A stretch of 64,000 bases of DNA from Burkholderiales bacterium (GTDB taxonomy: Bacteria > Pseudomonadota > Gammaproteobacteria > Burkholderiales > Casimicrobiaceae), in the NCBI GenBank assembly GCA_020851235.1, contig JADZDD010000011.1, positions 1-64,000 of the forward strand, read 5' to 3'. Positions 31,151 through 46,462 of this stretch are shown here, in pieces; position 1 is the stretch's first letter, and each line of letters begins with the position of its first letter. Position numbers and translations under genes: made by a program. A model generated the notes under the pieces. The model did no database searches. It was not told where the DNA came from and saw only the letters and a program-made list of their open reading frames with translations.

Positions 31151-31178
31151 GGTCGCGTTCGCGCGCGGCGAGCGGGAA

Positions 31179-32111: not shown

Positions 32112-32168
32112 GGGAGCGATCATAGCAAGCGTGCTCACGGTACCATGCAACCGCCCCAGGCACGCCCC

Positions 32169-33626
32169 ATGCGCAACCCCATCCTCATCGTCGGCGCCGG
32201 TCCCGTGGGTCTCACGCTGGCCTGTGAACTCGCCCGCTATCGCCTGCCGGTACGCATCGTCGACAAGGCTCCCGCGCGCAGCGACCAATCCCGGGCGCTG
32301 GCCGTGTGGCCGCGTACGCTCGAACTCCTCGATCGCACCGGCTGCGTGGAGGCGTTCACCAGGGCCGGGTTGCACGGCCGCGGCGCCGGCTTCTACGAAA
32401 GGGATGAGCCGATCGCGAAGGTGAGCTTCGATACCCTGGAATCGGCGTTCCGCTACGTGCTCCTCATCCCGCAGTCGGAAACCGAGCGGCTACTCGATGC
32501 CCATCTGCACGTCCTCGGCGGCCAGGTCGAGCGCAGCGTCCAACTGACCGCATTCGTGCCGGCAAGCGATCGCGTCACGTGCACGCTGCGCCACGCCGAC
32601 GGCAGCGACGAAACGATCGAGGCGAGCGTCCTCGTGGGTTGCGACGGTGCGCATTCATTCGTGCGGGAAAGCCTCGCCATGCCCTTCGACGGCGACACGC
32701 TGCCGGGACATTTCGTCCTCGCCGACGTGCACCTCGCCGGGGGTCGGCTGCCGGCGGACGAGGTCGCGATCGTCCTGCACGAGGACGGCACGCTGGCGTT
32801 CTTTCCGATCGCGCCCGGCCGCTACCGGGTCATCGCGGATGTCGGCGCCGAACCGCGCCACGATCCGACATTCGCGGAAATCCAAACGCTCGTCGCCCGG
32901 CGCGGGCCGGCTGGCATCACCCTGTCGAATCCGCTCTGGCTCTCGGGCTTCGGCGTCAACGAGCGCAAGGTGGCGTCATTCCGCGCGGGGCGCGTGTTCG
33001 TCGCGGGTGACGCGGCTCACGTCCACAGTCCGGCCGGTGGCCAAGGCATGAACACCGGCATGCAGGATGCGTTCAACCTCGCCTGGAAGCTTGCGCTGGT
33101 CGAACGCGGTCTCGCGAAGCCGAGTCTCCTCGACAGCTACAGCGACGAGCGCAGCGCCGTGGCGCGCCGGATCCTCGCCGACTCGGGAAAGATGATCCGC
33201 ATGGCGACGCTGCGCAACGCCGTTGCGCAATACGCCCGCAATTTCGTTGCGCATCGCTTGCTCGGCCTGCCCTTCGTGCAGCGCGCGGCCGCGAGCCGGC
33301 TCGCGGAAATCGCCATCGGCTACGCGGGGAGCCCCCTCAATGTCGGTTCGGCCGATGGTCTAGCCGGTCCGGCACCGGGGCAGCGCATCGTCGACAGCCA
33401 TCCCTTCGGCGCCGGCGACACGCCGCGCTTCGCAGTCATGGCGAACGACAGTCCCGGCATACGCGCCATGCTCGCCCGGTACGCCGACCTCGTCGAACCG
33501 TCACCGCGCGCGCCCCCCGACCCTGCCGGCCTGTGGCTCGTGCGTCCCGACGGCTACGTCGCGGCGGTCGCGCGTGCCGACGACCCGGCCCTGATCGCGA
33601 CCTGCCTCGCGCGGATCGCCCGCTGA
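32169..33626 (+). CDS. FAD-dependent aromatic hydroxylase-type monooxygenase
   Basis: 485 aa of the PheA/TfdB/RdmE type. The N-terminal dinucleotide motif is ILIVGAGPVGLTLACELAR. The FAD ribityl-binding segment is GRVFVAGDAAHVHSPAGGQGMNTGMQDA, split by the usual GD motif. The middle VLVGCDGAHSFVRESL is the family DG motif. The C-terminal 100 residues resemble the thioredoxin-like cap of this group. Family members hydroxylate phenols or polyketides with NAD(P)H; the substrate here is unknown. The ATG at 32169 is preferred over one eight codons upstream. This is the last backbone gene before the integron. Confidence 0.87.
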   Translation: MRNPILIVGAGPVGLTLACELARYRLPVRIVDKAPARSDQSRALAVWPRTLELLDRTGCVEAFTRAGLHGRGAGFYERDEPIAKVSFDTLESAFRYVLLIPQSETERLLDAHLHVLGGQVERSVQLTAFVPASDRVTCTLRHADGSDETIEASVLVGCDGAHSFVRESLAMPFDGDTLPGHFVLADVHLAGGRLPADEVAIVLHEDGTLAFFPIAPGRYRVIADVGAEPRHDPTFAEIQTLVARRGPAGITLSNPLWLSGFGVNERKVASFRAGRVFVAGDAAHVHSPAGGQGMNTGMQDAFNLAWKLALVERGLAKPSLLDSYSDERSAVARRILADSGKMIRMATLRNAVAQYARNFVAHRLLGLPFVQRAAASRLAEIAIGYAGSPLNVGSADGLAGPAPGQRIVDSHPFGAGDTPRFAVMANDSPGIRAMLARYADLVEPSPRAPPDPAGLWLVRPDGYVAAVARADDPALIATCLARIAR

Positions 33627-33673
33627 GGACTGCGGCGAGCGCGGCGACGATTTTCGTCCTGCTCGGGCTTGCG

Positions 33674-34224
<551 letters not shown>

Positions 34225-34252
34225 TCATCACGCGCCCAGGCGGCGAGTCACG

Positions 34253-35029
34253 TCAAGCGATCATCCCGTGGTCGCCGCACACTGATAGCGCCTGACCCGA
34301 GATATTCCGGCCCGAGGGTGTCGCGAGGAACAGCGCCATGTCGGCAATATCCTGCGCGCTGATCATGCGGCGCAGTGAGATCGAAGAAACGAACCGCGCG
34401 CGAAATTCCTCGACACTTACACCCAGCGCCTCGGCCTTGGCGCTAACGACCCGATCGACTCGGTCGCCTTCGACCACACCAGGCAGGAGCGCGTTGACAC
34501 GGATGTTCGAGGGCCCCAACTCCATCGCGAGGCTCTTGGAAAAACCGACCACGCCCCACTTCGCCGCGGAGTACGGAGTGCGCAGAGGGAATCCCAAACG
34601 GCCGGCGATCGAGGAAAGGTTGATGATGCTTCCGCCGCCTGCCGCCTTGAGCAGCGGGACGGCCCGGCGGGTGCAAAAGAACATGCTATTGAGATCAACC
34701 GCGATCGTGCGTTCCCACTCGGCAACGCTGATGTCCTCCACTCTCGCCGTGGGCCCGCTGATCCCGGCGTTGTTTATCAATACGTCGAGACCCCCAAGAT
34801 GGGAAACGGCAAGATCGAACATCCGATCGACTTGCTCGGGCGCAGCGACATCGGCAGTCGTCACTCCAATCCTTGGATATGAGGCGCGAATATCCGATAC
34901 CGCCGCGGCGTCGATATCGCATACAAACACGTTCGCGCCGGCGTCGGCGAAGGTCGACGCGATCGCGCGACCGATCCCGGCGGCACCGGCGGTTACCAGG
35001 ACGCGCATGCCCGCAGCGGAAACGTTCAT
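34253..35029 (-). CDS. Short-chain dehydrogenase/reductase
   Basis: 258 aa classical SDR. The cofactor motif is VTAGAAGIGRAIA (a TGxxxGIG variant with Ala for the first Gly). NNAG appears in LINNAGISG. The catalytic Ser is in INLSSIAGRLG, and the Tyr-Lys pair is in YSAAKWG. It ends GQALSVCGDHGMIA. The ATG at 35029 follows a strong GAGGGGAGG ribosome site. It lies in the eroded distal part of the integron and is longer than most cassette genes here, but has the same orientation and an attC-like remnant at its 3' end. Substrate unknown. Confidence 0.87.
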   Translation of the reverse strand: MNVSAAGMRVLVTAGAAGIGRAIASTFADAGANVFVCDIDAAAVSDIRASYPRIGVTTADVAAPEQVDRMFDLAVSHLGGLDVLINNAGISGPTARVEDISVAEWERTIAVDLNSMFFCTRRAVPLLKAAGGGSIINLSSIAGRLGFPLRTPYSAAKWGVVGFSKSLAMELGPSNIRVNALLPGVVEGDRVDRVVSAKAEALGVSVEEFRARFVSSISLRRMISAQDIADMALFLATPSGRNISGQALSVCGDHGMIA

Positions 35030-35045
35030 GCTGAATGGCCTCCCC

Positions 35046-35279
35046 TCATGACAGCGAATCCAGCACTGGCCCCGTATCGCGTGGCGCCTTGCAGTGCGTG
35101 TGGGCGCCCAACGTGATACCGGACTGGCGGGCCGCGCCAATGCGCGAACAGTAGCAGTCGTAGGGCGGCCCGTCCGGTCGAGCGCAGGGTCGGACGTCGG
35201 TCTCCATGCGCGCAGCCTTGCCAACATTGCATTCTGCACAGAGAGGCCGAAAGTTGTCCAACGTGGTCTCTTTGTTCAC
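35046..35279 (-). pseudogene. HNH endonuclease C-terminal fragment
   Basis: 77 codons from a GTG. Only the tail of an HNH nuclease is recognisable: TLDNFRPLCAECNVGKAARM corresponds to the second half of the motif, with its Cys-x2-Cys pair. The His-rich first half is missing. Upstream in the same frame there are only about ten codons before the TAA that also ends the glyoxalase gene at 35310. It looks like a broken cassette gene or a remnant left by loss of an attC. No function expected. Confidence 0.5.
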
Positions 35280-35309
35280 CGAGGTCCCGGTGCGTGAGCC
35301 TGCGAAGGC

Positions 35310-35699
35310 TTACCGAGAGGGTGCCGCAAAGGCGAGGACGTGACCGTCCGGGTCGAGCGAGTACGCTGCGGCGTGACCCCAGGACCGCACCATGAGCGGA
35401 CTGAGCTCTCGCGCTCCCATGCTCAACGCCCGCTGGTGCGAGGCCTGTGGATCCGGGACGACGAGATACAACTCGCAGCGCGGCGTGCCTGCCGCATGCG
35501 CCGGATCAGGCAGAGCGGACCGGAGCAACGCCTTGATTCCGCGTTCCGGCATCAGGCCCAGGACGCCGCCGCCTGGAAGCGCGAACTCGGTCATTCCCGG
35601 AACGCTCAGCCTCGGGGCCAATTGCAGGGCCGTCGCATAGAAGGCCTCGCTGCGCGCCTGATCGGCGACGTAGAGGATGAAGTGCGCGACAGTCCCCAC
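35310..35699 (-). CDS. Glyoxalase/bleomycin-resistance (VOC) family protein
   Basis: 129 aa from GTG 35699 (VGTVAHFILYVADQARSEAFY). An upstream ATG would start inside the attC. The protein has the VOC fold pattern: GMTEFALPGGGVLGLMPE, then RCELYLVVPDPQASHQRAL, then HAAAYSLDPDGHVLAFA. It resembles the 'glyoxalase-like' proteins common in cassettes. Substrate and metal use are unknown. The cassette also contains the HNH fragment just downstream. Confidence 0.8.
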   Translation of the reverse strand: MGTVAHFILYVADQARSEAFYATALQLAPRLSVPGMTEFALPGGGVLGLMPERGIKALLRSALPDPAHAAGTPRCELYLVVPDPQASHQRALSMGARELSPLMVRSWGHAAAYSLDPDGHVLAFAAPSR

Positions 35700-35716
35700 A
35701 GGCGGCGCCGTGCAAG

Positions 35717-35781
35717 CCCTAACGCCGAAGCCCAGCCGCCAAGGACCGCTGAGCGGTTCTCGGCGGCTCGAGCGACTTACC
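35717..35781 (-). other. attC of the AraC-GyrI cassette (degenerate gene-side core)
   Basis: CCCTAAC at 35717-35723 is a good outer core. AGCCGCC and GGCGGCT form a perfect inner stem around a second small hairpin (ACCGCTGAGCGGT). The gene-side core is altered (CTTACCA near 35776). It lies 27 bp past the AraC gene stop. Confidence 0.55.
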
Positions 35782-35807
35782 AGGTGCAAAACTCCGCAGC
35801 CACGCCT

Positions 35808-36749
35808 TCACAGTGGAGCAACGGGTATGCATATCTCGCACTCAAACGCCCCTGGGCCGCTGGTACAGTCGGCGCCCTTCGGATAGTACTCAAAGCATGG
35901 ACGATCATCGAGTTGGAAACCGCTGGAGGGTAACCAGTCGCGAAGCAACGCCGACCAGGCATCTCCCACTTGTTGGGCCGTGCCCTTGAATCTATGCACG
36001 GCATACTTGCCCCCGGGTAATGTAGCCTTGATCGCGCCACCTGTTGCGACAAAGTCTGCGTCGACTTCTGCACAAGCATCATATCTGCACTTCCCTGGTG
36101 CCGTGATGCTTGGGTCGTCGTGGCTGATGCCGTACCTCGCGTGGTCTTCACCAAGTTGATTCATGATTGCCCACGGAACGTAGGTTTCTTGCCAGAATCT
36201 GGAGATGGGCTCGCCGTAAGGGCCGACGTAACGAAGGTAGGCGACGGTTGCGGGATTCCGATCTACTAATGAAACCTGCATGTTGGCTTCCTCACCGGGT
36301 TTGAAGGAGCCTTCATGTTCGCCGAACGCCATCATTAGTGCCTGACTGCGGTTGCTGTCTGCCTGACCAGAATTGCTATTTGCACTGCGGCGCGACGACT
36401 GCTCCGCACGCCACTCCGATGGGGAACAGCCAAACCGATTCCTGAATGCGCGGGTGAACGCTTCACCAGAACCAAAGCCCACAGACAAGGCAATGTTCAG
36501 AACTTTGGTTTGAGGCTGTGCCGCGAGACGCATCGCTCCGATCTCCACACGACGCCTGCGTATGTATTCGCCGAGTCGCTCGCCCATCCATGCGGAGAAT
36601 AGCCGATGAAAGTGGAACGAAGAGCAGCAGGCAACATTGGCCAACGTTTCCAGGTCAAGTGACTGGTCCAGATGCTCATCGATGTATGCGAGCACGCGGT
36701 GCATTCGAGTTTGGTACTCGGAACGGGCGCGATGGTTGCCAAGGGCCAT
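35808..36749 (-). CDS. AraC-family regulator with GyrI-like effector domain
   Basis: 313 aa. The N-terminal AraC helix-turn-helix pair is clear (residues about 10-115; IDEHLDQSLDLETLANVACC and VLNIALSVGFGSGEAFTRAFR with FGCSPSEWR). The C-terminal half (about 155-313) is a GyrI-like small-molecule-binding domain (VDRNPATVAYLRYVGPYGEPI; GGKYAVHRFKG). Such fusions sense drugs or cationic compounds and activate export genes. The start ATG 36749 lies 18 bp inside the cassette with an AGGTG upstream. The LysE exporter is the neighbouring cassette, but separate cassettes need not be functionally linked. Confidence 0.88.
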   Translation of the reverse strand: MALGNHRARSEYQTRMHRVLAYIDEHLDQSLDLETLANVACCSSFHFHRLFSAWMGERLGEYIRRRRVEIGAMRLAAQPQTKVLNIALSVGFGSGEAFTRAFRNRFGCSPSEWRAEQSSRRSANSNSGQADSNRSQALMMAFGEHEGSFKPGEEANMQVSLVDRNPATVAYLRYVGPYGEPISRFWQETYVPWAIMNQLGEDHARYGISHDDPSITAPGKCRYDACAEVDADFVATGGAIKATLPGGKYAVHRFKGTAQQVGDAWSALLRDWLPSSGFQLDDRPCFEYYPKGADCTSGPGAFECEICIPVAPL

Positions 36750-36766
36750 GCCGCACCTGACGTGGA

Positions 36767-36828
36767 GGGTAACCGGCGCGTGCGAGGCTGGCGAAGCCTG
36801 CTGCAGCACGTCCGGCAACGGGTTAGCA
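36767..36828 (-). other. attC of the LysE cassette
   Basis: 62 bp with an outer core GGGTAAC at 36767-36773 and gene-side core GTTAGCA at 36822-36828. The inside holds GGCGAAGCC flanked by imperfect inverted repeats. The LysE stop codon is two bases beyond the gene-side core. Confidence 0.82.
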
Positions 36829-36829
36829 G

Positions 36830-37444
36830 TCACCTCTCGCTCGCGGCCAACCTCGCGCCGAGGGCCACAAACGCTGCCGAGAAGCCATAGCGCAGGACGC
36901 TCTGCACACGGGCGGACTCCATGACAAGCCGGCGAAAGGCGTGCGCCAAGAAGCCATAGATGACAAAGACCACGAAGGTCATTGCCATGAAGACCCCGCT
37001 CAGGATCAGCAGGTCGGCCAGTGGCTGCGTCGAGGCCGGATCGACAAACTGAGGCAGGAACGCCAGAAAGAAGATGGTGAGCTTGGGATTGAGGATGTTG
37101 AGCAGAAGAGCTTTGACGACAAGGCCGGTCGCCGAGACCTTGGACATGCTGCCATCGACCGCGAAGGCCGAGCGGTCGCGCCACGTTGCCACCGCCAGGT
37201 AGAAGAGGTAGGCCACACCTGAGAACTTGAGCACCTGAAACGCCAGCGCACTGGTGTGCATGACGGCCGCCAGGCCCAGGACGGTGGCCAGCAAGTGCGG
37301 GAGGATTCCCGCCGTGCAGCCAATTGCTGCGTAGATGCTGGCGCGCCGGCCACGCGTCAGACCCGTCGAGACGGTGTACACGACACCGGTTCCGGGAATG
37401 AGAACGACGACGAGCGACGTGATGAGGAATTCGGGCGTGATCAT
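36830..37444 (-). CDS. LysE/RhtB family exporter
   Basis: 204 aa membrane protein with six hydrophobic segments. The family signatures are LIPGTGVVYTVSTGLTRGRR near the N-terminus and the LNPKLTIFFLAFLPQFVDP segment in the middle. LysE/RhtB proteins export amino acids and related compounds. The ATG at 37444 is used. This is a complete transporter gene inside a cassette; its stop lies two bases from the attC core. Confidence 0.92.
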   Translation of the reverse strand: MITPEFLITSLVVVLIPGTGVVYTVSTGLTRGRRASIYAAIGCTAGILPHLLATVLGLAAVMHTSALAFQVLKFSGVAYLFYLAVATWRDRSAFAVDGSMSKVSATGLVVKALLLNILNPKLTIFFLAFLPQFVDPASTQPLADLLILSGVFMAMTFVVFVIYGFLAHAFRRLVMESARVQSVLRYGFSAAFVALGARLAASER

Positions 37445-37473
37445 GGGGAGACAGTATGGCGGATTCCGGTGGC

Positions 37474-37551
37474 GCCTAACGACCACGTTCAGCGGCGCGA
37501 GCCGGGAGGCGAAGCCCGCTGGTGAGCGTCCGATGCAATGCTCGGTTAGGG
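37474..37551 (-). other. attC of the GNAT cassette
   Basis: 78 bp. Outer core GCCTAAC at 37474-37480 and gene-side core GTTAGGG at 37545-37551. Inside, GTTCAGCGGC and GCTGGTGAGC are imperfectly paired around GGCGAAGCCC. Confidence 0.88.
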
Positions 37552-37552
37552 C

Positions 37553-38068
37553 TCAGATGCTTCTCGGCAATGAAAGCGACCATAGTTCTTCGTCGATGAA
37601 CCGCCCGTTCACCTGCAACGACTCAGGATGTCTAGCGACAAACCGAAAACCGAACTTTGCGTAAAGCGACTTTGCGGCGAAATTCTCCGACCAGACGTGG
37701 AGCTGGAGTTGGCGTAAAGCGGGCAAAGCGTCGACACGCTTCAGGAGAGCCAAAAGAAGTGCTGATCCGTAGCCGATTCGGCGGTGTGAGACCTGCACAT
37801 AGGCGCCCCACAACGTGGATTGGTGCGCCCGCTTCGCGCCACGCTCGCGAAACCAGCCCATCGCGCCTCGGAGAATATCGCTCTCATCGAACGCGCCGAC
37901 CACCCACGCGCAGTCGGTCGGCGTGATACGGCGAGCGAACTCGGCACCTGGAAGGTTCTCTTCGTCGTCGATGTGTGCCCCGAACGACTCGGGGCTCAGG
38001 CGCAAACCCTCCAACCGCAGCGCACGAAACGCTTGGGCATCGTCGGGTGTGAGGGTGCGCACTGACAT
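37553..38068 (-). CDS. GNAT-family N-acetyltransferase
   Basis: 171 aa. The acetyl-CoA-binding motif is VQVSHRRIGYGSALLLALL, a Q/RxxGxG/A form with Ile between the Arg and Gly. The C-terminal LHVWSENFAAKSLYAKFGFRF is the usual GNAT ending. GNAT enzymes are among the commonest cassette products; the substrate could be an amine, an antibiotic or a protein. The start is at 38068, close after the cassette boundary at 38084. Confidence 0.9.
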   Translation of the reverse strand: MSVRTLTPDDAQAFRALRLEGLRLSPESFGAHIDDEENLPGAEFARRITPTDCAWVVGAFDESDILRGAMGWFRERGAKRAHQSTLWGAYVQVSHRRIGYGSALLLALLKRVDALPALRQLQLHVWSENFAAKSLYAKFGFRFVARHPESLQVNGRFIDEELWSLSLPRSI

Positions 38069-38078
38069 TTCCTCTGAG

Positions 38079-38159
38079 CCCTAACGATGCGCATAGGCGG
38101 CGCGAATCAGCGGCGCGCAGCATCGCTGTTGAGCGTCCGTCCTTATGCGCGGGTTAGCC
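38079..38159 (-). other. attC of the DPDTGL-protein cassette
   Basis: 81 bp. Outer core CCCTAAC at 38079-38085 and gene-side core GTTAGCC at 38153-38159. ATGCGCATA and TATGCGC are among the inverted pieces. The TAA stop of the upstream gene is read out of the gene-side core. Confidence 0.88.
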
Positions 38160-38750
38160 AGCACTTTTCGTGACACACAGGAAGACGACATCGGTGCCTC
38201 CCCTCTCGGACCGCGCCACTTCTACAGCAGACCCGTCGCACAACTCGCTAAACTGAGACGATACAGATGCCACCCAGTCGGGTGTGCGCCGAGCGTGTTG
38301 GTATAGCACAAGCCAATCTCCACGGTGCAACCCCGACCAAGCATCGTGTACTTCACTTCGGGTAACGTGGGTTACGATCGCACGACCGGGTTCCAACCCC
38401 GTATCTGGGTCGAGGAACAGCAGTAGAGGCCGAGCATTGTGGCCCAATTGCTGCCGGACCATTGCCGAATACTCTTCACGGTTAGTTGCATCAAAGCGTG
38501 CAGTCAGGACCTTCACGGGTATACCGCAATCCCTTCCAAGACGCTCCGTGTGTCTGATGTCGCGAAAGAACGCCCAAACATCTTCCGCTACGGGTACCGC
38601 GCGATCTCGAAATCGGAAGTGTGGGCGCTCCGGTTCTGGTCGCCAATAGGGAACATGAATGATCGAACGAAGAGAGTGTTGCCTGGCAAGATGTACAAGC
38701 ACCCCCCACTTCGCGAGGTCTCGGTTGTCGGAATACCAGATATCACGCAC
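38154..38750 (-). CDS. Cassette protein of unknown function with DPDTGL motif
   Basis: 198 aa from GTG 38750. I do not recognise a named family with confidence. The N-terminus reads RDIWYSDNRDLAKWGVLVHLAR. The centre has LLFLDPDTGLEPG at about residues 127-139, followed by VHDAWSGLHRGDWLVLYQHAR. The acidic DPDTGL after a hydrophobic strand and the YQHAR segment look like active-site or binding loops of an alpha/beta enzyme. They vaguely recall the strand-4 region of methyltransferase-like partner proteins. The stop codon is formed by the attC core. It is the only gene of its cassette. Confidence 0.7.
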   Translation of the reverse strand: MRDIWYSDNRDLAKWGVLVHLARQHSLRSIIHVPYWRPEPERPHFRFRDRAVPVAEDVWAFFRDIRHTERLGRDCGIPVKVLTARFDATNREEYSAMVRQQLGHNARPLLLFLDPDTGLEPGRAIVTHVTRSEVHDAWSGLHRGDWLVLYQHARRTPDWVASVSSQFSELCDGSAVEVARSERGGTDVVFLCVTKSAG

Positions 38751-38765
38751 GGCGCGGCTCGTGCT

Positions 38766-38837
38766 GGCTAACGTTCGATATGAGCGGCGGCGCAAGGGCG
38801 AAGCCCTTGTGACGTCCGCTCGATGGAGCGGTTAGCC
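38766..38837 (-). other. attC of the HicAB cassette
   Basis: 72 bp. Outer core GGCTAAC at 38766-38772 and gene-side core GTTAGCC at 38831-38837. GTTCGATATGAGCGGC and GTCCGCTCGATGGAG are the imperfectly paired halves, around AAGGGCGAAGCCCTT. The outer halves are nearly the same as in the site at 40663-40734. Confidence 0.92.
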
Positions 38838-39170
38838 ATCAGCCCGCATCGCCTGTTCGAGCGCTTCGGTTGCCCATTGATTCAGGCTCTTGCCCATTGC
38901 CTGAGCCTTTATCAGCGCCCGACTGTGCACCTCGGGCGGCACGCGGAGGAGCAGCTTGCCCGAGGCCGGCTTTTCGGGCGAGATACCTTGCTCTTCGCAG
39001 TCTGCAAGATAGTCCTTGATCGCTGCCGTGAACTCACGCCGCAGTTCAGCCACGGTTCTTCCGTGGAAACTGATGATGCTGCGAAGCCCGAGCACCCGAC
39101 CGACAAAGATGTCGTCGCGCTCGTCGTATTCGACCCTAGCGGTGTAGCCTCGAAAGGTCATCGTGTTCAT
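38832..39170 (-). CDS. hicB: HicB-family antitoxin
   Basis: 112 aa. The N-terminal HicB partial-RNase-H-like domain reads FRGYTARVEYDERDDIFVGRVLGL. The C-terminal part (LLLRVPPEVHSRALIKAQAMGKSLNQWATEAL) is a ribbon-helix-helix DNA-binding segment. HicB neutralises HicA and represses the operon. Its ATG overlaps the HicA stop by 4 bp. The TAA stop is provided by the attC core. Confidence 0.93.
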   Translation of the reverse strand: MNTMTFRGYTARVEYDERDDIFVGRVLGLRSIISFHGRTVAELRREFTAAIKDYLADCEEQGISPEKPASGKLLLRVPPEVHSRALIKAQAMGKSLNQWATEALEQAMRADG

Positions 39171-39421
39171 GGTTTGACTCCTGCGCGCTCGAGAAGCTCG
39201 CGTGCCTCTTCAACTTGGTACCGCTTGGCCTCCTTACCTGGGTGGGGGCGATGGCAGCGCCATTCGTGACCCTCGAGCACTACCCTGACCCTGGATCCTT
39301 CGCGCTCGCGGACACTGCCGCCGAGCGCTTTGATCAGAGATTCAATATCTGAAAAGTCGATCGACGGCGAGGTTGGTCGCGCGAAGATGGCTGACAGCGT
39401 CTTCTTGTGCTTGGAGTTCAC
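39167..39421 (-). CDS. hicA: HicA-family mRNA interferase toxin
   Basis: 84 aa, a little longer than the shortest HicA proteins because of an N-terminal extension (MNSKHKKTLSAIFARPTSPSI). The dsRBD-like core has the catalytic His in WRCHRPHPGK, although the usual G-S-H order is altered. LIKALGGSVREREGSRVRV is the typical first half. HicA cleaves mRNA without ribosomes until bound by HicB. The toxin gene precedes the antitoxin, as usual for hicAB. A palindrome lies 9 bp upstream of the start. Confidence 0.9.
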   Translation of the reverse strand: MNSKHKKTLSAIFARPTSPSIDFSDIESLIKALGGSVREREGSRVRVVLEGHEWRCHRPHPGKEAKRYQVEEARELLERAGVKP

Positions 39422-39429
39422 GCTGCAAC

Positions 39430-39448
39430 GATAGCATAACGTGCTATC
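39430..39448. promoter_or_regulatory. Candidate HicB operator
   Basis: GATAGCA and TGCTATC are perfect 7-bp arms with TAACG between them, 9 bp upstream of the hicA start and inside the same cassette. HicB proteins with a ribbon-helix-helix domain bind short palindromes in their own promoter, so autoregulation is the natural reading. Confidence 0.65.
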
Positions 39449-39500
39449 ACATCAAACCGTGGTGGCGTGCAGACCGCGCTTGGCTGATGGCTAGCGTGTC

Positions 39501-39569
39501 AGGTAACCGGCACGCGAGAGGCGGGCGAAGGCCCGCCGAGGCGCGTCCGCGTTGACCGCCAGGTTAGGG
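39501..39569 (-). other. attC of the RelBE cassette
   Basis: 69 bp. Outer core AGGTAAC at 39501-39507 (imperfect) and gene-side core GTTAGGG at 39563-39569. GGCGGGC, GAAG and GCCCGCC form a strong central hairpin. The TAA stop of the toxin gene is inside the gene-side core. Confidence 0.82.
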
Positions 39570-39833
39570 GGCGCGATAGACCTCACGGCGATGCCCCACC
39601 TTGATGATCTCAACGATCCGATGCGCGTCATCGACCATATAGATGACGCGATAGTCGCCTTGGCGAACTCGAAAGAGGGCTGCCGGTCCTGCGAGCTTTT
39701 CACTGCCCGGGGGCTTGGGCTCGGTCGCCAACGATCGGATCCGACCCACGATCCGTTGACGGTCACGCTTGCTTCCAACCGCCTCGATCTCCTTTGCGGC
39801 CGACGGCTTGATCAGCAGCCTATATCCGGCCAC
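39564..39833 (-). CDS. RelE/ParE-family toxin
   Basis: 89 aa. It has the RelE fold pattern: YRLLIKPSAAKEIEAV, LAGPAALFRVRQGDYRVIYMVDDA and a C-terminal IIKVGHRREVY, where Arg, Tyr and His residues expected for ribosome-dependent mRNA cleavage are present. It overlaps the antitoxin gene by 14 bp. Stop codon TAA comes from the attC core. The alternative, a ParE-type gyrase poison, is less likely given the VGHRREVY ending. Confidence 0.9.
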   Translation of the reverse strand: MAGYRLLIKPSAAKEIEAVGSKRDRQRIVGRIRSLATEPKPPGSEKLAGPAALFRVRQGDYRVIYMVDDAHRIVEIIKVGHRREVYRAP

Positions 39834-40059
39834 GTTTCCTCAGATCGCGAACCAGCGTCTCGAAGGAAACACTGCGCTCGGACTTGCGCTTATCAAACGA
39901 CGCAAGATCCTCGGCGTCCTCCGCCAGTGCGACCTTCACGGCATCGTTGACCATGTCGGAAATCGACCGATCAGTAGCGGCGGCCTTGAGGCGCAGCGCT
40001 TGGTGGACCGCTGCGTCGAAATACACGGTGGCGCGTTTGGCGTCTTCCATCGCGCGCAT
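39820..40059 (-). CDS. Ribbon-helix-helix antitoxin of the RelE-type toxin
   Basis: 79 aa. The N-terminal RATVYFDAAVHQALRLKAAATDRSISDMVNDAV is a ribbon-helix-helix DNA-binding domain. The C-terminal acidic tail and basic end (LRKRGRI) should bind the toxin. ATG 40059 gives MRAMEDAK; ATG 40050 (MEDAK) is an alternative start. It lies upstream of its toxin, as is usual for relBE-type pairs, behind a tandem repeat that may be its operator. Confidence 0.88.
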   Translation of the reverse strand: MRAMEDAKRATVYFDAAVHQALRLKAAATDRSISDMVNDAVKVALAEDAEDLASFDKRKSERSVSFETLVRDLRKRGRI

Positions 40060-40068
40060 GGTAGCGCT

Positions 40069-40084
40069 ATAACGTCATAACGTC
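40069..40084. promoter_or_regulatory. Candidate antitoxin operator: tandem 8-bp repeat
   Basis: ATAACGTC occurs twice head-to-tail directly upstream of the antitoxin start. Ribbon-helix-helix antitoxins bind repeated half-sites in their own promoter; the location and spacing fit this. Confidence 0.55.
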
Positions 40085-40108
40085 AAGACGCCACGCGCTA
40101 CGAAAGCC

Positions 40109-40162
<54 letters not shown>

Positions 40163-40168
<6 letters not shown>

Positions 40169-40633
40169 GGCGGTCTGCCCACGCTCCGCCAGTTCCTTGA
40201 CCTTAGGCAAGAGCCTTCCCCACAAGCTCACGACGAAGGGATCCAGCTGTTCGCCCCCGACAAGTTTCGCGAAGTCTCCGTGCGCCGTTGAGAGAACGGT
40301 ACGGCCTGCGTCACCTACCAAAGAGTAAGTCTGGGTGATGTCGTCATCGGCGAGTCCCGAGGCTGGACGTAGCTCTGGGTTCAGTACGTCGCGGACCGTG
40401 AATCGCAGGAGCCTGCCCCGAGCAACTGCGGTGACCTTGCCATCTACATACACCTCGCCTTGCGCGTTCCTCCAGAGTACATCGCTGCCGAGCTTCCAAT
40501 TGGAATCGATGGGGCCGGTCGCGCCAAACTCCACCGCCCATCGGCTGGTCCATTCTGGCTCGGTCAGAATCTCCCACACGCGCGAAGGCCTCACATGAAT
40601 CTCGATGGAACGTTCCACATAAAGCTTGTCCAT
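40163..40633 (-). CDS. SRPBCC-fold (START/AHSA1-like) protein
   Basis: 156 aa. The pattern KLYVERSIEIHVRPSRVWEILTEPEWTSRW is the opening of AHSA1/START-type ligand-binding domains. The protein continues with a WKLGSDVLWRN segment and ends in a C-terminal helix with LWGRLLPKVKELAERG. Such proteins bind hydrophobic small molecules or act with Hsp90; the function is open. The ATG at 40633 after GAGAG is preferred over 40651, and both lie inside the cassette. The stop codon is supplied by the attC core. Confidence 0.85.
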
Positions 40634-40662
40634 GTCGCACTCTCGGCGCATCGTCGGCTGCT

Positions 40663-40734
40663 GTCTAACGTTCGACATGAGCGGCAGGCGACCGGCGCAG
40701 CCGGTTGACTGTCCGCTCGATGGAGGGGTTAGGC
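40663..40734 (-). other. attC of the HEPN-DUF262 cassette
   Basis: 72 bp. Outer core GTCTAAC at 40663-40669 and gene-side core GTTAGGC at 40728-40734, both perfect matches to RYYYAAC and GTTRRRY. GTTCGACATGAGCGGC and GTCCGCTCGATGGA are the imperfect halves around GACCGGCGCAGCCGGTT. It closes the first, two-gene cassette. Confidence 0.93.
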
Positions 40735-40748
40735 GTCACTGCCGCTGC

Positions 40749-41216
40749 TCACGGCTCGACCAGTTGCATGATGTGATCCACTATCTCGTTGACTGCGCGA
40801 TAGTGCGTCTTGATCTGCGATAGGCTCGTGCCTACTGATTCACCGTGAGCGATCTTGTGCCTTAGCGCTACAAGGCTGTTGACGCTATCTTTTCGCTGAT
40901 CCACTAGGAACTGCGTCAAGTCATTGCGCCAGTCTTGATTGAACGCGCCAAAGAGATCAATTATTTTCTCCGACTTCGGATTTGTCCAAGGGCCTAGCTG
41001 GCGCTCGACAAACGAGGCTACCTCGGGGGAACTGTGTTGCTGCGAGTAAGACAATAGAAGCGCGCACAAAGCGCTCTCAAGATACCCCGATACCAGTACG
41101 CAAAGATACTTTGCGAAATCCGACTGAAGCTCTGGATCGCTCGAAGCGTCGGGCGCGCGCCCAAAAGCCGCATCCAATCGCGTCCGTAGACGGTGAACTT
41201 CTCGCCTGCCGCTCAT
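40749..41216 (-). CDS. HEPN-domain protein, predicted RNase (MAE_28990/RiboL-PSP type)
   Basis: 155 aa, all-helical. ALRHKIAHGES contains the R-x4-H motif of HEPN RNases at Arg119 and His124, followed by the usual Gly. The first half (LQSDFAKYLCVLVSGYLESAL) resembles the conserved helix of the MAE_28990/MAE_18760 and RiboL-PSP HEPN groups. HEPN proteins are the RNA-cutting toxins of many defence and toxin-antitoxin systems. Its ATG overlaps the DUF262 stop (ATGA), so the two are made together. Whether the partner activates or restrains it is not known from sequence. Confidence 0.82.
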   Translation of the reverse strand: MSGRREVHRLRTRLDAAFGRAPDASSDPELQSDFAKYLCVLVSGYLESALCALLLSYSQQHSSPEVASFVERQLGPWTNPKSEKIIDLFGAFNQDWRNDLTQFLVDQRKDSVNSLVALRHKIAHGESVGTSLSQIKTHYRAVNEIVDHIMQLVEP

Positions 41217-42325
41217 TCGACCCTGGCAAAGGCTGCTATTGCTCGATCAAGCCGCAAACGGACGAACTCCTCGTCGGCAGTGGAACGCCCGGACGCCTTT
41301 AGGTACTCCGCGTCCCGGAGCAATTCTTCGTACGCGCTCTTAAAAGACTCCGGCTTCGTAGGTTTGCCGGCAGCGAGGCGACGAGCCACTCCAACCATTA
41401 CGGAATCGGCTATCGCCGCATTTATAGCTGTCTTCAGGCGAAACGCGCGCGAGCCGATATAGCTGTGTATCGTCTCAACTGTCGACTCGAAGAGGCTTCG
41501 AAGTTCGCCTTCGTCATTTCTCTGTAAGTCCACGTTAGCGGCCATATATCGATTTAGGAACTCTTTCATAGGCCGCTTATACTGCTTTGCGCGGTAGTAC
41601 AATGCAAAAAAGCGGAGAATCAGCTCGAGGTCTTTGAGGCGCGTACTCTTCTGGCCATAGAGGCCCCGCCACGCTGCGTTTGTATTTAGCGAGCTAAGCA
41701 AGGACGCGAACCTGCCGTGATACAGAGCGACACGTATCTCTTGAGGTTGAAGAAAGGTACCACCTGAGTTCAGGCGCTCAAAGATTAGATAGACGCTGCT
41801 CTGATCGTCCGAAGGCTCATCCTGTCGGACGATCGTCGCATGAATGATGCTATCGTCCAAGCGGCGGCGATCGTCCGGCTCAAGAGTCTTGTAGGTCTTG
41901 CCGCGCCACTTGTCCTGCACGTTCTCGAGAAGGAACTCCTTGCCTTGCATGACACCGTCGTAGAAATGCTGCAAGGTACGCAGCCGTTGCTGACCGTCGA
42001 GTACGAGATGCTTACCGCTCGCTTCCTTCACTAAGAAGATTCCAGGGACTGGCAGGCCGAGAAGTAGTGATTCAATGAATCGGTCGCATTGAGGTTTTGT
42101 CCAGACGAACTCCCGTTGGAAGCCAACAGTTGATTGGCCCGCTTCCGCCTGCATGCTGAAGAGTGGCACGACTATGTCGCCTTGGCCAAGGCGCTTAACA
42201 AGGCCATCTACCGGGTAGTCTGCCCCGTAGGCGGTGATGGTGTACGCGGTAGGAATGACCTCGTTAACCTCATCGAGATCTTCCACGTCCTCGTCCGGAA
42301 AAGGCGTAGCAAGTTCGTTTGTCAT
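41213..42325 (-). CDS. DUF262 (GmrS/ParB-Srx-like) protein
   Basis: 370 aa. The DUF262 motifs are clear: FQREFVW at residues 69-75, LVLDGQQRLRTL around 108-119 and IFERLNSGGTFLQPQEIR at 181-198. This domain has a ParB/sulfiredoxin-like nucleotide-handling fold. It occurs in GmrSD-type modification-dependent restriction enzymes and in many defence islands. There is no DUF1524 HNH nuclease domain; the C-terminal ~170 residues are helical. The partner nuclease would then be the HEPN RNase downstream. The ATG at 42325 is chosen because the longer frame runs back across attI. This is the first gene after attI. Confidence 0.87.
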   Translation of the reverse strand: MTNELATPFPDEDVEDLDEVNEVIPTAYTITAYGADYPVDGLVKRLGQGDIVVPLFSMQAEAGQSTVGFQREFVWTKPQCDRFIESLLLGLPVPGIFLVKEASGKHLVLDGQQRLRTLQHFYDGVMQGKEFLLENVQDKWRGKTYKTLEPDDRRRLDDSIIHATIVRQDEPSDDQSSVYLIFERLNSGGTFLQPQEIRVALYHGRFASLLSSLNTNAAWRGLYGQKSTRLKDLELILRFFALYYRAKQYKRPMKEFLNRYMAANVDLQRNDEGELRSLFESTVETIHSYIGSRAFRLKTAINAAIADSVMVGVARRLAAGKPTKPESFKSAYEELLRDAEYLKASGRSTADEEFVRLRLDRAIAAFARVE

Positions 42326-42388
42326 AGATAAGAACCTTCGGTGAAGTACGATTCTCGTGCATTTTCGCCTGAGAGTGACTTCTGTGCC

Positions 42389-42475
42389 GCCTAACGAGAA
42401 GTATGACGCGAAACCGCCATCTTGCCACGCCGCGTTTCGGACGTGATGGCCGCCTCCGCTCGTCCTAACAGCCGA
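42389..42475 (-). other. attI-like recombination site with first cassette junction
   Basis: Read on the minus strand, the first cassette begins at GTTAGGC (complement of GCCTAAC at 42389-42395). A second GTTAGGA (complement of TCCTAAC at 42464-42470) lies about 75 bp toward intI and may be part of a direct-repeat integrase-binding site. The stretch lacks the gene-side structure of an attC. It lies between the first cassette and the integrase relic, exactly where attI belongs. Exact limits are a guess. Confidence 0.6.
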
Positions 42476-42479
42476 TGGG

Positions 42480-42876
42480 ATGCGGTGCGCAAAGTTCCCG
42501 AAAATCACGGGACTGCATTGCGAATGGGAGGCCGAAAGGCCGGGTTCCGTGGGGGCGAAACCGCCGGCTCTGCTGCTCGATCGCGTCCGCCAACGGATCC
42601 GGTTCAAGCACTACAGCCTTCGCACCGAGCGGGCGTACTGCGACTGGATCCGGCGCTTCGTCGTGTTCCACGGCAAGCGCCATCCGTCCGGACTCGATCG
42701 GTTGATCGGATCGTTGCTCTACGGCACGGGGTTGCGCATCCTGGAGGCGATGCGGCTCCGCGTGAAGGACGTCGAATTCTCCCGCCGGGAGATCCTCGTG
42801 CGTGGCGGCATCGAGCGCTGGCACCACCTGTCGGACCAGGCGTTCCAGCGCGCGATGAAGCATGCCGCGCGCACCC
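42480..42876 (+). pseudogene. intI: Integron integrase remnant with two internal deletions
   Basis: Three pieces of IntI are joined in one open frame. Codons about 29-69 give the N-terminal DNA-binding start (LLLDRVRQRIRFKHYSLRTE, WIRRFVVFHGKRHP). Codons about 71-110 give the box 1 region (SLLYGTGLRILEAMRLRVKDVEF, REILVRGG) with the catalytic Arg. Codons about 111-132 resemble the segment before box 2 (RWHHLSDQAFQRAMKHAAR). The stretch between GKRHP and box 1 and the whole IntI-specific insertion are gone. The HxxR box, the His and the nucleophilic Tyr are also gone. It cannot recombine. A GTG at 42549 is the likeliest original start. Confidence 0.88.
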
Positions 42877-43128
42877 CAAGCGCGGCAGCCCATCGATCAC
42901 CGCGTACACGATGTGGAAGCGATCGATCCCGTTGCGCACGCACCTGTCGAACGGCAGGGCCGGGGCCGCGTGCGGCCGCAACGGAGGCGCGAAAGTCCGG
43001 CCGGGGCCACTCGCGTGGCAGCGCGCCGCCGTTGGCGTGCGGGCTGTCGCTCCTGCGCCGACTGCCACCAGGCGGCAACCCCGCGAGACAAGCAGGAAGA
43101 CGACGCGGGCATGGCGCGCGTTCGTACG
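42877..43128. other. Gene-free stretch after the integrase remnant
   Basis: About 250 bp of GC-rich sequence between the intI relic and lysR. Open frames exist on both strands but none has recognisable motifs or a convincing start. It may be what is left of the intI 3' end after the deletions. I see no attC, hairpin terminator or transposon end. Confidence 0.5.
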
Positions 43129-44109
43129 TCACTTGCGCTTGCGACCTGATGCGCTCGCGCGTGCGGCGCGCATGCGAGCGCCCGTCGATGGCGGAGGCGA
43201 CGGCGCATCGAGCGCCCATTGCGACGTCGCGAAGTGCTCCGACAGGAACTGCGCAAAGGCGCGGACCTTCGCCGACAGATGGCGACGACTCGGATACATC
43301 ACGTGGATCGGCGCGCCCGGCGGTGGAAAATCGCGCAGGATCGGAACGAGGCGACCGGCGCGCACGTCGGGGCCGACGGCGAAGTCCGGTTCGTACGTGA
43401 TGCCCGCGCCGTCGCGCGCGAGCGCCGCGAGGAAGCTCCCGTTGTTGGCGACGACCGGGCCGGCAACGCGCACGCGCCACGTCGTGCCGCCGGCGCCGAC
43501 GAAGGTCCACACGTCGCGCTGCGTCGCGTACTGGTAGAGGAGGCAGCGGTGCCTGGTGAGATCGTCGGGCACCCGCGGCGTGCCGTGGCGCGCGAGATAT
43601 GCAGGCGCCGCGCAGCAAACGAGCGCGCTCGATCCGATGCGCCTCCCGACGAGGTTGCTTGCCGGCGAGCCGCCGATGCGCACGGCGGCATCGAAACCCT
43701 CGTCGACGAGGTCGACCATGCGATCGGACAGCTCCACCTCGAAGCGGACGTCGGGATACTTCACCATGAACGCGGCGACGGCACCCACGAGGTGCGCGTT
43801 GCCGAACGTCGTCCCGCAGGTCACGCGCAAGGTGCCGCGCGGCACGACCGCCTCGGCGCTCGCCGACGCCTCAGCCTCGTCGAGGTCGGCGAGCAACTGC
43901 ACGCCGTGCTCGTGAAACCGTCGTCCCGCCTCGGTCAGCGACAGGCGCCGCGTCGTGCGGTTGAGAAGCCGCGACCCGAGGTGCGCCTCGAGATCGGCCA
44001 CCAGTCGCGACACTGCCGACACCGACACGGCGAGCCGCTGCGCGGCGCCGGCAAAGCTCCCTGTCTCCACGACCTTGACGAAGGTCGCAATGGCGCGAAA
44101 TCGATCCAC
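43129..44109 (-). CDS. LysR-family transcriptional regulator
   Basis: 326 aa. The N-terminal winged helix-turn-helix is typical (FRAIATFVKVVETGSFAGAAQRLAVSVSAVSRLV). The effector domain follows (TFGNAHLVGAVAAFMVKYPDVRFEVELSDRMVDLV), closest in style to the CrgA/DsdC-like subgroup. A basic Ala/Arg-rich tail of about 30 residues (ARMRAARASASGRKRK) extends beyond the usual end. GTG 44109 is used. It is divergent from a glutathione transferase gene, with a near-perfect palindrome just upstream of its start. Confidence 0.92.
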   Translation of the reverse strand: MDRFRAIATFVKVVETGSFAGAAQRLAVSVSAVSRLVADLEAHLGSRLLNRTTRRLSLTEAGRRFHEHGVQLLADLDEAEASASAEAVVPRGTLRVTCGTTFGNAHLVGAVAAFMVKYPDVRFEVELSDRMVDLVDEGFDAAVRIGGSPASNLVGRRIGSSALVCCAAPAYLARHGTPRVPDDLTRHRCLLYQYATQRDVWTFVGAGGTTWRVRVAGPVVANNGSFLAALARDGAGITYEPDFAVGPDVRAGRLVPILRDFPPPGAPIHVMYPSRRHLSAKVRAFAQFLSEHFATSQWALDAPSPPPSTGARMRAARASASGRKRK

Positions 44110-44113
44110 CAGG

Positions 44114-44140
44114 ACATTGTTGCATATTTCACAACAATGT
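44114..44140. promoter_or_regulatory. Candidate LysR-type operator
   Basis: ACATTGTTG and CAACAATGT are perfect 9-bp arms around a 9-bp spacer (CATATTTCA). It begins 5 bases upstream of the lysR start and 138 bp upstream of the transferase start. It includes the T-N11-A pattern of LysR-type sites. Position suggests autoregulation and control of the divergent gene. Confidence 0.75.
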
Positions 44141-44277
44141 TTCAGCAAGAGGCCTGTTTATCTCGATCCGATCGCGATCCAGAATACGCGGGTGTCGTGG
44201 CGCATCGACGGGCAAACCGCTCGTGCGCGATGCGAATTCACCACGACCCGACCCCAGACCCTTCGATGGAGCTCATG

Positions 44278-44880
44278 ATGAAACTGTATTTCGCGCCTGG
44301 CGCCTGCTCGCTCGCCCCGCATATTGCACTCGCGGAAGCCGGCCTTTCGTACGACACGACGAAGGTCGACCTGCGCAAGCACGTCACGGCCGACGGCACC
44401 GACTACTACACGATCAATGCCAAGGGGTACGTGCCGTTTCTCGTTCTCGACGATGGATCGACGCTGTCGGAAGTCGCGGTGATCCTGCAATACATCGCCG
44501 ACCGCAAGCCGGGCACGCTCGCACCGGCGTTTGGCGGGCAGGATCGCTACAAGCTCATGGAGTGGCTCAACTTCGTCGCCACCGAACTGCACAAGACGTA
44601 CGGACCGTTGTGGCACCCCACCACACCCGAGGCGACGAAGAGCGCGAACATCGAGCGCCTCCGCGCCCGTTACGGCGTGATCGAGAAGACGCTCGCGACG
44701 CAGCCGTATCTCATGGGCGAGGCGTACAGCGTTGCCGACGTCTACCTGTACGCGATCACCCGCTGGGCGGCGATGCTCAAGGTCGATCTCGGCGCCTTCC
44801 CGGCGCTTGCGAAATTCATGGCGCGCGTCGAGGCGCGCCCCGCCGTACAGAAGGCGCTCGCCGCGGAGGGCCTCAAGTAG
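44278..44880 (+). CDS. gst: Glutathione S-transferase (beta-class)
   Basis: 200 aa. The N-terminal thioredoxin-like domain starts MKLYFAPGACSLAPHIALAEAG with Cys10, the catalytic cysteine of beta-class bacterial enzymes. GSTLSEVAVILQYIAD is the glutathione-binding turn with the conserved Glu-Ser type site. The C-terminal helical domain includes YSVADVYLYAITRW. GGAG lies 6 bases before the ATG at 44278. Likely controlled by the divergent LysR protein. Substrates may be electrophilic xenobiotics. Confidence 0.93.
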   Translation: MKLYFAPGACSLAPHIALAEAGLSYDTTKVDLRKHVTADGTDYYTINAKGYVPFLVLDDGSTLSEVAVILQYIADRKPGTLAPAFGGQDRYKLMEWLNFVATELHKTYGPLWHPTTPEATKSANIERLRARYGVIEKTLATQPYLMGEAYSVADVYLYAITRWAAMLKVDLGAFPALAKFMARVEARPAVQKALAAEGLK

Positions 44881-44982
44881 CGGCGGCGTCACGCAACCCG
44901 GAGCGGAGCCGCGACGCGTCGCTCCGGGCGCCCGCCATCGATGCGGTGCGCGCCGCCCGCACCATGTCACGCGAGACTCCTC

Positions 44983-45795
44983 ATGACCGCGCTCCCCACG
45001 CTCTTCCTCTCCCACGGCTCGCCGCTGCACGCCGTGCGCGCGGGCGCGGCCGGCCGGGCGTGGGTCGAGATTGCACGCGCACTGCCGAAGCCGAAGGCGA
45101 TCCTCATCGCGTCGGCACACTGGGAAACGTCGCTGCCGCTGCTCACCGGGAGTCGCGCACCGCAGACGATGCACGACTTCGGCGGCTTTCCGCCCGAACT
45201 CTATGCGCTGCGCTACCCCGCGCCGGGCGCGCCCGAGGTCGCCGCGCAAGCGGTCGAACTCCTGCGCGGGGCGGGAATCACCGCCGGCATCGATGGCTGT
45301 CGCGGGCTCGACCATGGGGCTTGGGTTCCGTTGCTGCACATGTACCCGGCGCACGACGTGCCCGTCGTGCAGTTGTCACTGCAGCCGGGTCGCGGCACGG
45401 CGCACCACGTCGCCCTCGGGCGCGCGCTCGCCCCGCTTGCAAGCGAGGGCGTCCTCATCGTGGGCTCGGGACACGCGACGCACAACCTGCGCGACTACCT
45501 GCAGCGCAGCCGCACGGAAGCGCCGTTGCCGTACGTGACGGCCTTCACCGACTGGCTCGCCGCCCGCATCGCCGCGCACGACGTCGCGGCGCTCGTCGCG
45601 TATCGCGAGGTCGCACCCGACGCCGAGCGCGCGCACCCGACCGAGGAGCACTATCTGCCGCTTCTGGTGGCCGTCGGCGCCGCCGCGGCCGACGCGCGCA
45701 GCGAGCACGTGAGGATCGGCAACGATGGCGGCGTGCTCGCGCTCGACGCCTGGCTCTTCCATCCCGCGCGCGGCGCGCGCCTCAAGGCTGCATGA
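44983..45795 (+). CDS. LigB-type extradiol dioxygenase (DODA/YgiD family)
   Basis: 270 aa. It has the class III extradiol pattern: LFLSHGSPLHAV with His11, IASAHWET with His48-type ligand, and LDHGAWVPLLHMYP with another His. GSGHATHNLRDY comes near residue 165. Family members cleave catechol-type rings or act on DOPA using iron or zinc. It starts 102 bp after the transferase and may be in the same transcript. Its 3' end overlaps the FHA gene stop by 14 bp. Confidence 0.88.
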   Translation: MTALPTLFLSHGSPLHAVRAGAAGRAWVEIARALPKPKAILIASAHWETSLPLLTGSRAPQTMHDFGGFPPELYALRYPAPGAPEVAAQAVELLRGAGITAGIDGCRGLDHGAWVPLLHMYPAHDVPVVQLSLQPGRGTAHHVALGRALAPLASEGVLIVGSGHATHNLRDYLQRSRTEAPLPYVTAFTDWLAARIAAHDVAALVAYREVAPDAERAHPTEEHYLPLLVAVGAAAADARSEHVRIGNDGGVLALDAWLFHPARGARLKAA

Positions 45796-46462
45796 AGCGC
45801 AGTGACGCGCCGGCGACCTCGATTACGTCACCGGGCGTGAGCGCGCACGCTTCGGCGCCGATCGAGCGCCCGTTCACGCGCGGGTAGTCCGCCCCCTCGA
45901 CGTGCGTGGCAAAAAAGCCCTGCGGTCGCCGGGTGAGCACCACCACACCGACGCCGGGCGTGCCGAATGTCGCGACGACGCGATCGAGACGGCGCTGCTC
46001 GCCGCGATGCGGCCCGTCGATCCATTCGACGTGGCCGGAAGGAAACCGCGCCGGCGACGCCTCCGGCGAGGTTGCCGCGATCGGGGTCGGACCCACGGTC
46101 GGCGCCGGATCGGAGGCGAGCGCGGGATCGAGTCCGCGGATGAGCATCGTGCGTTCGAGGTCGATCGGTGACGCCGCCCGCGAATCGACGTACTTGAGGT
46201 GGCAGTCGCCGAACTCGGCGACATCGCCGTGCTGCAGGATACGGCGCACGCACGAGGTGCCGTTGATCACGAGCTCGGCGGGCGGCGCGGCTTCGAGGAT
46301 GTAGTCGTGCCCGACCACGACGACGCGCGCGTGGATCGCGGCAACCCGAGGATCGTCGACCACGAAGTCGCTCGACGGATCGCGGCCGATCGTCAGCGAA
46401 TCCGCGTCGAGGAAGCGCTGCATCGCGATCGCGCCACCGCGGGAGAGGACGAGCTTGGCCAT
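45782..46462 (-). CDS. FHA-domain protein
   Basis: 226 aa. The forkhead-associated domain is at the N-terminus: LTIGRDPSSDFVVDDPRVAAIHARVVV carries the Gly-Arg and Ser-type phosphothreonine-binding residues, and ELVINGTSCVRRILQHGDVAEFG continues it. A Pro/Ala linker (about 120-145) leads to a second FHA-like beta domain, whose NGRSIGAEACALTPGDVIEVAG is an FHA-type ending. FHA domains read phosphothreonine. The gene is 5 bp after a PP2C phosphatase and opposite a Ser/Thr kinase, so it is probably the reader of that kinase. Confidence 0.87.
   Translation of the reverse strand: MAKLVLSRGGAIAMQRFLDADSLTIGRDPSSDFVVDDPRVAAIHARVVVVGHDYILEAAPPAELVINGTSCVRRILQHGDVAEFGDCHLKYVDSRAASPIDLERTMLIRGLDPALASDPAPTVGPTPIAATSPEASPARFPSGHVEWIDGPHRGEQRRLDRVVATFGTPGVGVVVLTRRPQGFFATHVEGADYPRVNGRSIGAEACALTPGDVIEVAGASLRFMQP

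Follow-up and report, generated by a model that had tools for sequence, protein, structure and literature searches.

We report a pair of genes in a 64,000-nucleotide stretch of DNA from a Burkholderiales bacterium of the family Casimicrobiaceae (assembly GCA_020851235.1, contig JADZDD010000011.1, positions 1–64,000 of the forward strand), hereafter the window. The pair, a DUF262 gene followed by a HEPN gene, both on the minus strand, fills the 1.7 kb first-position cassette of an integron. It is probably a two-gene anti-phage unit belonging to the DUF262-HEPN kind, related to the PD-T4-2 system but divergent from it, and captured as the first integron cassette. The starting points of this reading are observed directly, namely both genes, their motifs, the HEPN fold (in an AlphaFold model), the cassette borders and the conserved linkage of the two genes.

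The first gene (41213..42325, minus strand) encodes a 370-amino-acid protein, the proposed sensor or regulator dependent on nucleoside triphosphate (NTP). Its sole Pfam match up to an E-value of 1 is GmrSD_N (PF03235; 1.5e-27), and neither DUF1524 nor an HNH domain was found in that search. Alignment with the closest relatives puts the start at the ATG at 42325; an alternative 464-amino-acid open reading frame (ORF) opens with a TTG inside the integrase/attI region. The DUF262 motifs, named as in passages of PMC12137116, are intact: QR (Q70-R71), DGQQR (110–114) and FxxxN (F182-xxx-N186). Residues Q70, R71, D110, Q113, R114, F182 and N186 do not vary in any of the 17 aligned DUF262 rows, and G111 is almost invariant (locus L005 has DAQQR). 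The closest solved relatives by profile are BrxU/SspE-type DUF262 entries, 7p9k (8e-11) and 6jiv (4.5e-4).

The DUF262 gene overlaps the second gene in an ATGA stop/start (41213..41216, minus strand), an arrangement also present in seven of the nine nearest relatives (in L026 only if the earliest start is used). The second gene (40749..41216, minus strand) encodes a 155-amino-acid protein, the proposed RNase effector, which matches HEPN_RiboL-PSP (PF18735) at 8.6e-18. All 17 aligned HEPN rows keep E47, R119 and H124, and the AlphaFold model (predicted local distance difference test score 92) matches solved HEPN domains, with HEPN-MNT toxins among its structural nearest neighbours. The protein thus has what defines the HEPN superfamily, an R-x4-6-H motif (here R119-x4-H124) in a helical bundle, although a sequence search of solved structures gave no credible HEPN match for the protein or its profile. 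NCBIfam, searched at an E-value of 0.1, holds no family for either protein. An original prediction, made from the letters of the window and a list of its ORFs, had described intact DUF262 motifs without a fused HNH nuclease and a HEPN motif at Arg119 and His124; the Pfam searches, the 17-row alignments and the fold match bear out each of these points.

The cassette has an attC site at one end and an attI junction at the other, and its genes lie in cassette orientation. The attC (40663..40734, minus strand) forms one hairpin with paired RYYYAAC/GTTRRRY ends, and its positions 40665–40734 share 83–86% identity with segments of two plasmids from betaproteobacteria. Across the window, the strict attC pattern gave one site and the intermediate pattern two, compared with 0.6 for the intermediate pattern in mononucleotide shuffles. 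On the integrase side, the R-box GTTAGGC of the attI/cassette junction (42389..42395, minus strand) is a pattern match of just seven bases; it was assigned from where it lies, with the integrase remnant on one side and the first gene on the other. That remnant (42573..42809, plus strand) consists of two pieces matching the integron-integrase family TIGR02249, which keep model positions 1–41 and 119–155 of 315; the rest is missing. Since the integrase pieces start at 42573, the pair cassette is attI-proximal. Gene coordinates, attC, R-box and integrase pieces therefore agree with an attI-proximal cassette whose two genes share an ATGA, as originally predicted, with the correction that the adjacent integrase is a remnant. 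The G+C content is 0.54 in the pair cassette and 0.70 in both flanks, which fits a foreign origin.

The DUF262-HEPN pair is conserved across plasmids, phages and chromosomes. A plasmid search with the DUF262 protein matched 123 records and with the HEPN protein five; all five HEPN matches, from three phyla (in Kocuria, Arthrobacter, Hymenobacter, Rhodococcus and Phaeobacter), have a DUF262 gene directly upstream. Within the class, DUF262 matches were found at 19 places in 18 of 274 genomes, and the downstream gene encodes a HEPN protein at ten of these (the window included), an AAA/DUF3696-type ATPase at seven and a RelA/SpoT-like protein at one, with no candidate at the last. In the reverse direction, a HEPN profile found six places in 398 genomes, five of them directly after a DUF262 gene and the sixth beginning at base 13 of its contig, so that the upstream gene is cut off; this search scored at most nine candidates per genome and may therefore have overlooked matches, and the profile itself included two of the six (the window and G606). 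Single window proteins found no relative in viral contigs. Among 61 viral DUF262 loci, 35 have a HEPN-profile match in the ORF after or overlapping the DUF262 end, the profile having included L031, of which L106 and L107 are near-copies. The pair is thus not a one-off occurrence, a possibility ruled out by relatives on plasmids, in genomes and in viral contigs, and the lack of linkage elsewhere that was to refute the original prediction did not materialize. The partner on Acinetobacter plasmid pAB1 (L032) lacks R-x4-H and falls below the Pfam cut-off.

The closest relatives of the window pair are in Burkholderia turbans (L002, 78%) and Aquabacterium terrae (L003, 73%). Against these, pN is 0.14–0.19 and pS, at 0.76–0.82, is saturated. 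L002 probably lies in a prophage, because a tyrosine integrase, a tRNA-Arg and a match to a phage DNA-ejection protein adjoin it; L003 adjoins an integrase and a TIR-domain gene (L003:6891-8339, minus strand), which also has a weaker ThsB_TIR match. Of 17 relative loci whose flanks were searched for attC, 14 are without any, and L003, L073 and L079 have one isolated weak match each, that of L003 overlapping the HEPN 3' end. Among the loci examined, integron carriage of the pair is seen only in the window.

A quick-type tree of 67 DUF262 proteins sorts largely by partner. One branch (support 97) holds 44 rows: all 40 HEPN-partnered rows, three without a partner and one other. On its other side are 20 ATPase-partnered rows, two RelA-partnered rows and one unclassified row, these ATPase and RelA labels being read from the start of the neighbour sequence and Pfam-checked for L011 and L021 only. 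In the Pfam check of HEPN-labelled partners, 29 of 33 lie above a HEPN cut-off, with seven further partners outside this check; of the four tested partners that do not pass, L009 and L042 narrowly miss the cut-off, L008 matches weakly and L048 gives no match. The window DUF262 protein groups with L002 and L003 (support 99), within a 19-row group (support 86) that neighbours the PD-T4-2 group. The latter consists of L048, L049 and L070, recognised by the PD-T4-2_B model, together with L008 (support 100). DUF262 and HEPN distances correlate (r 0.80; 0 of 5000 permutations) over a selected set of 35 pairs, most of them from the window and PD-T4-2 groups, as expected for genes that move together. 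Two other kinds of DUF262 neighbourhood were observed: (i) L007, L033 and L045 form a supported group on the HEPN side, without a partner gene just downstream, and (ii) in L021 and L039 a RelA/SpoT-like gene comes after the DUF262 gene (for L021 with a Pfam match), a third kind of partner.

The tested member of the kind is PD-T4-2, an E. coli system blocking T4, whose deletion in the native strain raised T4 plaquing according to the passages of Vassallo 2022 (PMC9519451) that describe it. DUF262 is not named in the main text of that paper; the domain assignment comes from part of PMC10952713, where PD-T4-2 is listed under both DUF262 and HEPN PF18735. Its two genes have the same order as ours, with DUF262 preceding a small R-x4-H protein. 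The DUF262 proteins align over the greater part of their length: profiles from each group, sharing no rows, give an hhalign probability of 100 (E-value 1.5e-49, 313 columns). The PADLOC PD-T4-2_A model matches the window DUF262 at 6.8e-52, although it is not specific, matching Menshen-type and other DUF262 proteins too. The differences are these: the same model gives a true PD-T4-2 (L110) 516 bits and the window protein 175; PD-T4-2 members carry DGLQR in place of DGQQR and form their own fully supported subclade, with the window outside; and PD-T4-2_B matches L110 (8e-52) and not the window HEPN protein. No near match of L110 was found in the E. coli genomes searched, nor did the PD-T4-2_B model PDLC04028 match in the source genome at an E-value of 0.001. 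The unmatched PD-T4-2_B models and the position outside the subclade rule out PD-T4-2 in the strict sense; most likely, the window pair is kin of PD-T4-2 and works like it, yet is not a member. The original prediction of a self-contained unit packed in one cassette accordingly gains a kin group that includes a proven anti-phage system, while its statement that no characterised system has exactly this pair falls with PD-T4-2 itself and with the ParB/HEPN operons of PMC3710099.

In the mechanism that we propose, the DUF262 protein would bind and turn over NTP and sense a feature of infection, most likely in the incoming DNA, such as a base modification. Until this trigger it would keep the HEPN protein inactive, or on receiving it recruit the HEPN protein. 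Freed HEPN would then cut RNA at its R119/H124 centre, halting phage growth, perhaps at a cost to the cell. Being first in the array would help the pair to be expressed from the integron promoter. We infer RNA cutting from the HEPN family, and a sensor/effector split between the two proteins is the best reading of the pair.

DNA sensing appears the likeliest trigger, for three reasons: (i) in SspE and BrxU, according to part of PMC10952713, DUF262 binds NTP and controls a nuclease; (ii) escapers of GrwAB alter a DNA-modification enzyme, as a passage of PMC12137116 reports; and (iii) methyltransferases occur nearby. A DNA methyltransferase lies near 10 of 39 HEPN-partnered loci versus 1 of 20 ATPase-partnered ones, and near 24 of 61 viral loci (many of them near-copies), in counts that used queries from the same loci and flanks of differing length and that missed the C5 methyltransferase of L090. 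The same search found none near L002, L003 and L005, the nearest relatives of the window. In L031, L057, L106, L107 and L114, the DUF262 gene overlaps at its start with a gene for a C5-type DNA methyltransferase, giving a three-gene operon with HEPN. More tentatively, the pair could be an RNA-cutting counterpart of type IV restriction, in which a DUF262 NTPase resembling GmrS would recognise DNA that is modified or foreign and, without cutting it, activate a HEPN RNase. HEPN would then be one of several effectors (HEPN, AAA/DUF3696 ATPase, RelA/SpoT-like) coupled to the same DUF262 sensor, in a unit compact enough to travel within an integron as a cassette and to be expressed from the first position; we regard this wider picture as possible, short of probable.

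Several results weigh against a PD-T4-2-like defence unit triggered by DNA. The PADLOC PD-T4-2_B models do not match the window HEPN protein up to an E-value of 1, the HEPN profiles of the window and PD-T4-2 groups align weakly (hhalign probability 40, E-value 3e-4), and L048, itself a PD-T4-2_B protein, is the partner without a Pfam HEPN match. GrwAB combines DUF262 with DUF1524 rather than with HEPN. The source genome has no C5 methyltransferase match, which leaves modification sensing indirect. Finally, a scan of the stretch ahead of the DUF262 gene found no promoter-like site.

The alternative that survives best, though we consider it unlikely, is a toxin-antitoxin pair, in which HEPN would be a growth-inhibiting RNase and DUF262 its antitoxin, kept to stabilise the cassette array as the HicAB and ParE/ribbon-helix-helix (RHH) cassettes may do. 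Gene order and the ATGA overlap are toxin-antitoxin-like, HEPN-MNT toxins are among the structural neighbours, HicA/HicB and ParE/RHH-like genes share the array, and integron HEPN proteins have been proposed as stress RNases (PMC3710099). Yet the antitoxin would have 370 amino acids, more than its toxin, and carry conserved NTPase motifs; relatives of the pair adjoin restriction genes and occur in phages, and PD-T4-2 defends against phage. Toxin-antitoxin and defence roles are not mutually exclusive. It is improbable that the cassette is decayed or silent, kept by chance in an array that its own integrase can no longer rearrange: the integrase remnant and the missing promoter match would fit, but both frames and all motifs are intact, and non-synonymous change is low, though most divergence predates capture. 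Least probable is modification-dependent restriction with DUF262 itself acting on DNA as in GmrSD and HEPN a mere accessory, for despite the BrxU/SspE-type structures closest by profile (7p9k, 6jiv), the protein ends at 370 amino acids without DUF1524 or another nuclease domain and its conserved partner is a HEPN protein with invariant R and H.

Comparison with other known systems sets the pair apart. The 2013 survey PMC3710099 recorded RiboL-PSP-HEPN and MAE_28990-HEPN operons, the former 'operon with ParB', the latter with ParB nuclease and DNA methylase genes. They share the HEPN family (by Pfam) and the ParB(DUF262) neighbour type with the window, but are known there as a gene arrangement only, and MAE_28990 operons often have a DNA methylase, which the window lacks. 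Menshen (NsnABC) resembles the pair in that its NsnA model matches the window DUF262 at 1.1e-61, a match common to all ten DUF262 proteins scanned. NsnA-like DUF262, however, adjoins an AAA/DUF3696 protein (L011), and rows with that partner fall outside the HEPN-side branch; the HEPN partner in place of an AAA/OLD-type second gene rules out Menshen. The type IV restriction systems GmrSD, BrxU, SspE and GrwAB share DUF262 with QR, DGQQR and FxxxN motifs, whereas the window has a HEPN protein instead of the DUF1524 nuclease; GmrSD identity is excluded, with no DUF1524 fused or adjacent and an AHSA1-like gene in the next cassette. HEPN-MNT toxin-antitoxin systems share the HEPN fold, but pair it with an MNT nucleotidyltransferase rather than DUF262.

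Small anti-phage units in cassette arrays were described in 2025 (Darracq, Kieffer, Getz), as cited in PMC12409362 and PMC12444791, in whose relevant passages the DUF262-HEPN pair is not named. The 2013 survey (PMC3710099) had already pointed out integron cassettes with HEPN proteins from another family (PDB 3jrt). Our literature search for DUF262, HEPN, PD-T4-2 and integron, which covered the 2025 papers indirectly only, found no DUF262-HEPN integron cassette. The DUF262-HEPN defence kind is already known, and the divergent version carried by an integron is most likely new. The window pair is placed as one subclade of this widespread kind, and since the subclade escapes the PADLOC PD-T4-2_B models used, surveys may overlook pairs of this sort. 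Should the DUF262 protein indeed sense DNA and set off the RNase, DNA-modification sensing would be linked to RNA-cutting defence, a link for which the 1.7 kb cassette offers a convenient test format.

The array continues beyond the pair. The second cassette carries the AHSA1-like gene (40163–40678) and ends in an attC at 40109..40168 (minus strand; pattern scans). Further attC-like minus-strand sites, spanning 36768..39569, lie at 39502–39569, 38766–38837, 38079–38159 and 36768–36828; they come from a relaxed pattern run without shuffles, which also matched inside the DUF262 gene (42193–42269) and at two sites outside 33000–42500. Between these sites lie minus-strand genes of the AHSA1-like, ParE with RHH-like, HicA/HicB, unknown ORF, GNAT, LysE and AraC/GyrI types. 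Two cassettes are toxin-antitoxin-like (38832–39421 and 39564–40059, minus strand), with HicA/HicB and with ParE plus a weak RHH match below the cut-off. The 213-amino-acid ORF (38154–38795, minus strand) has no match in Pfam (0.01), NCBIfam (0.1) or PADLOC (0.1), and Rfam gave no match across 30000–46000. The AraC/GyrI-type regulator (35808–37184, minus strand) matches Cass2, an integron-associated effector-binding family. A second integron integrase is present in the same genome (L151, G000:C39:60960-61676, minus strand), with no attC-like site in the 12.2 kb around it. It is one open frame of 282 amino acids that matches TIGR02249 positions 1–155 and 231–314, the intervening stretch missing, and its N-terminal part is very like the window remnant.
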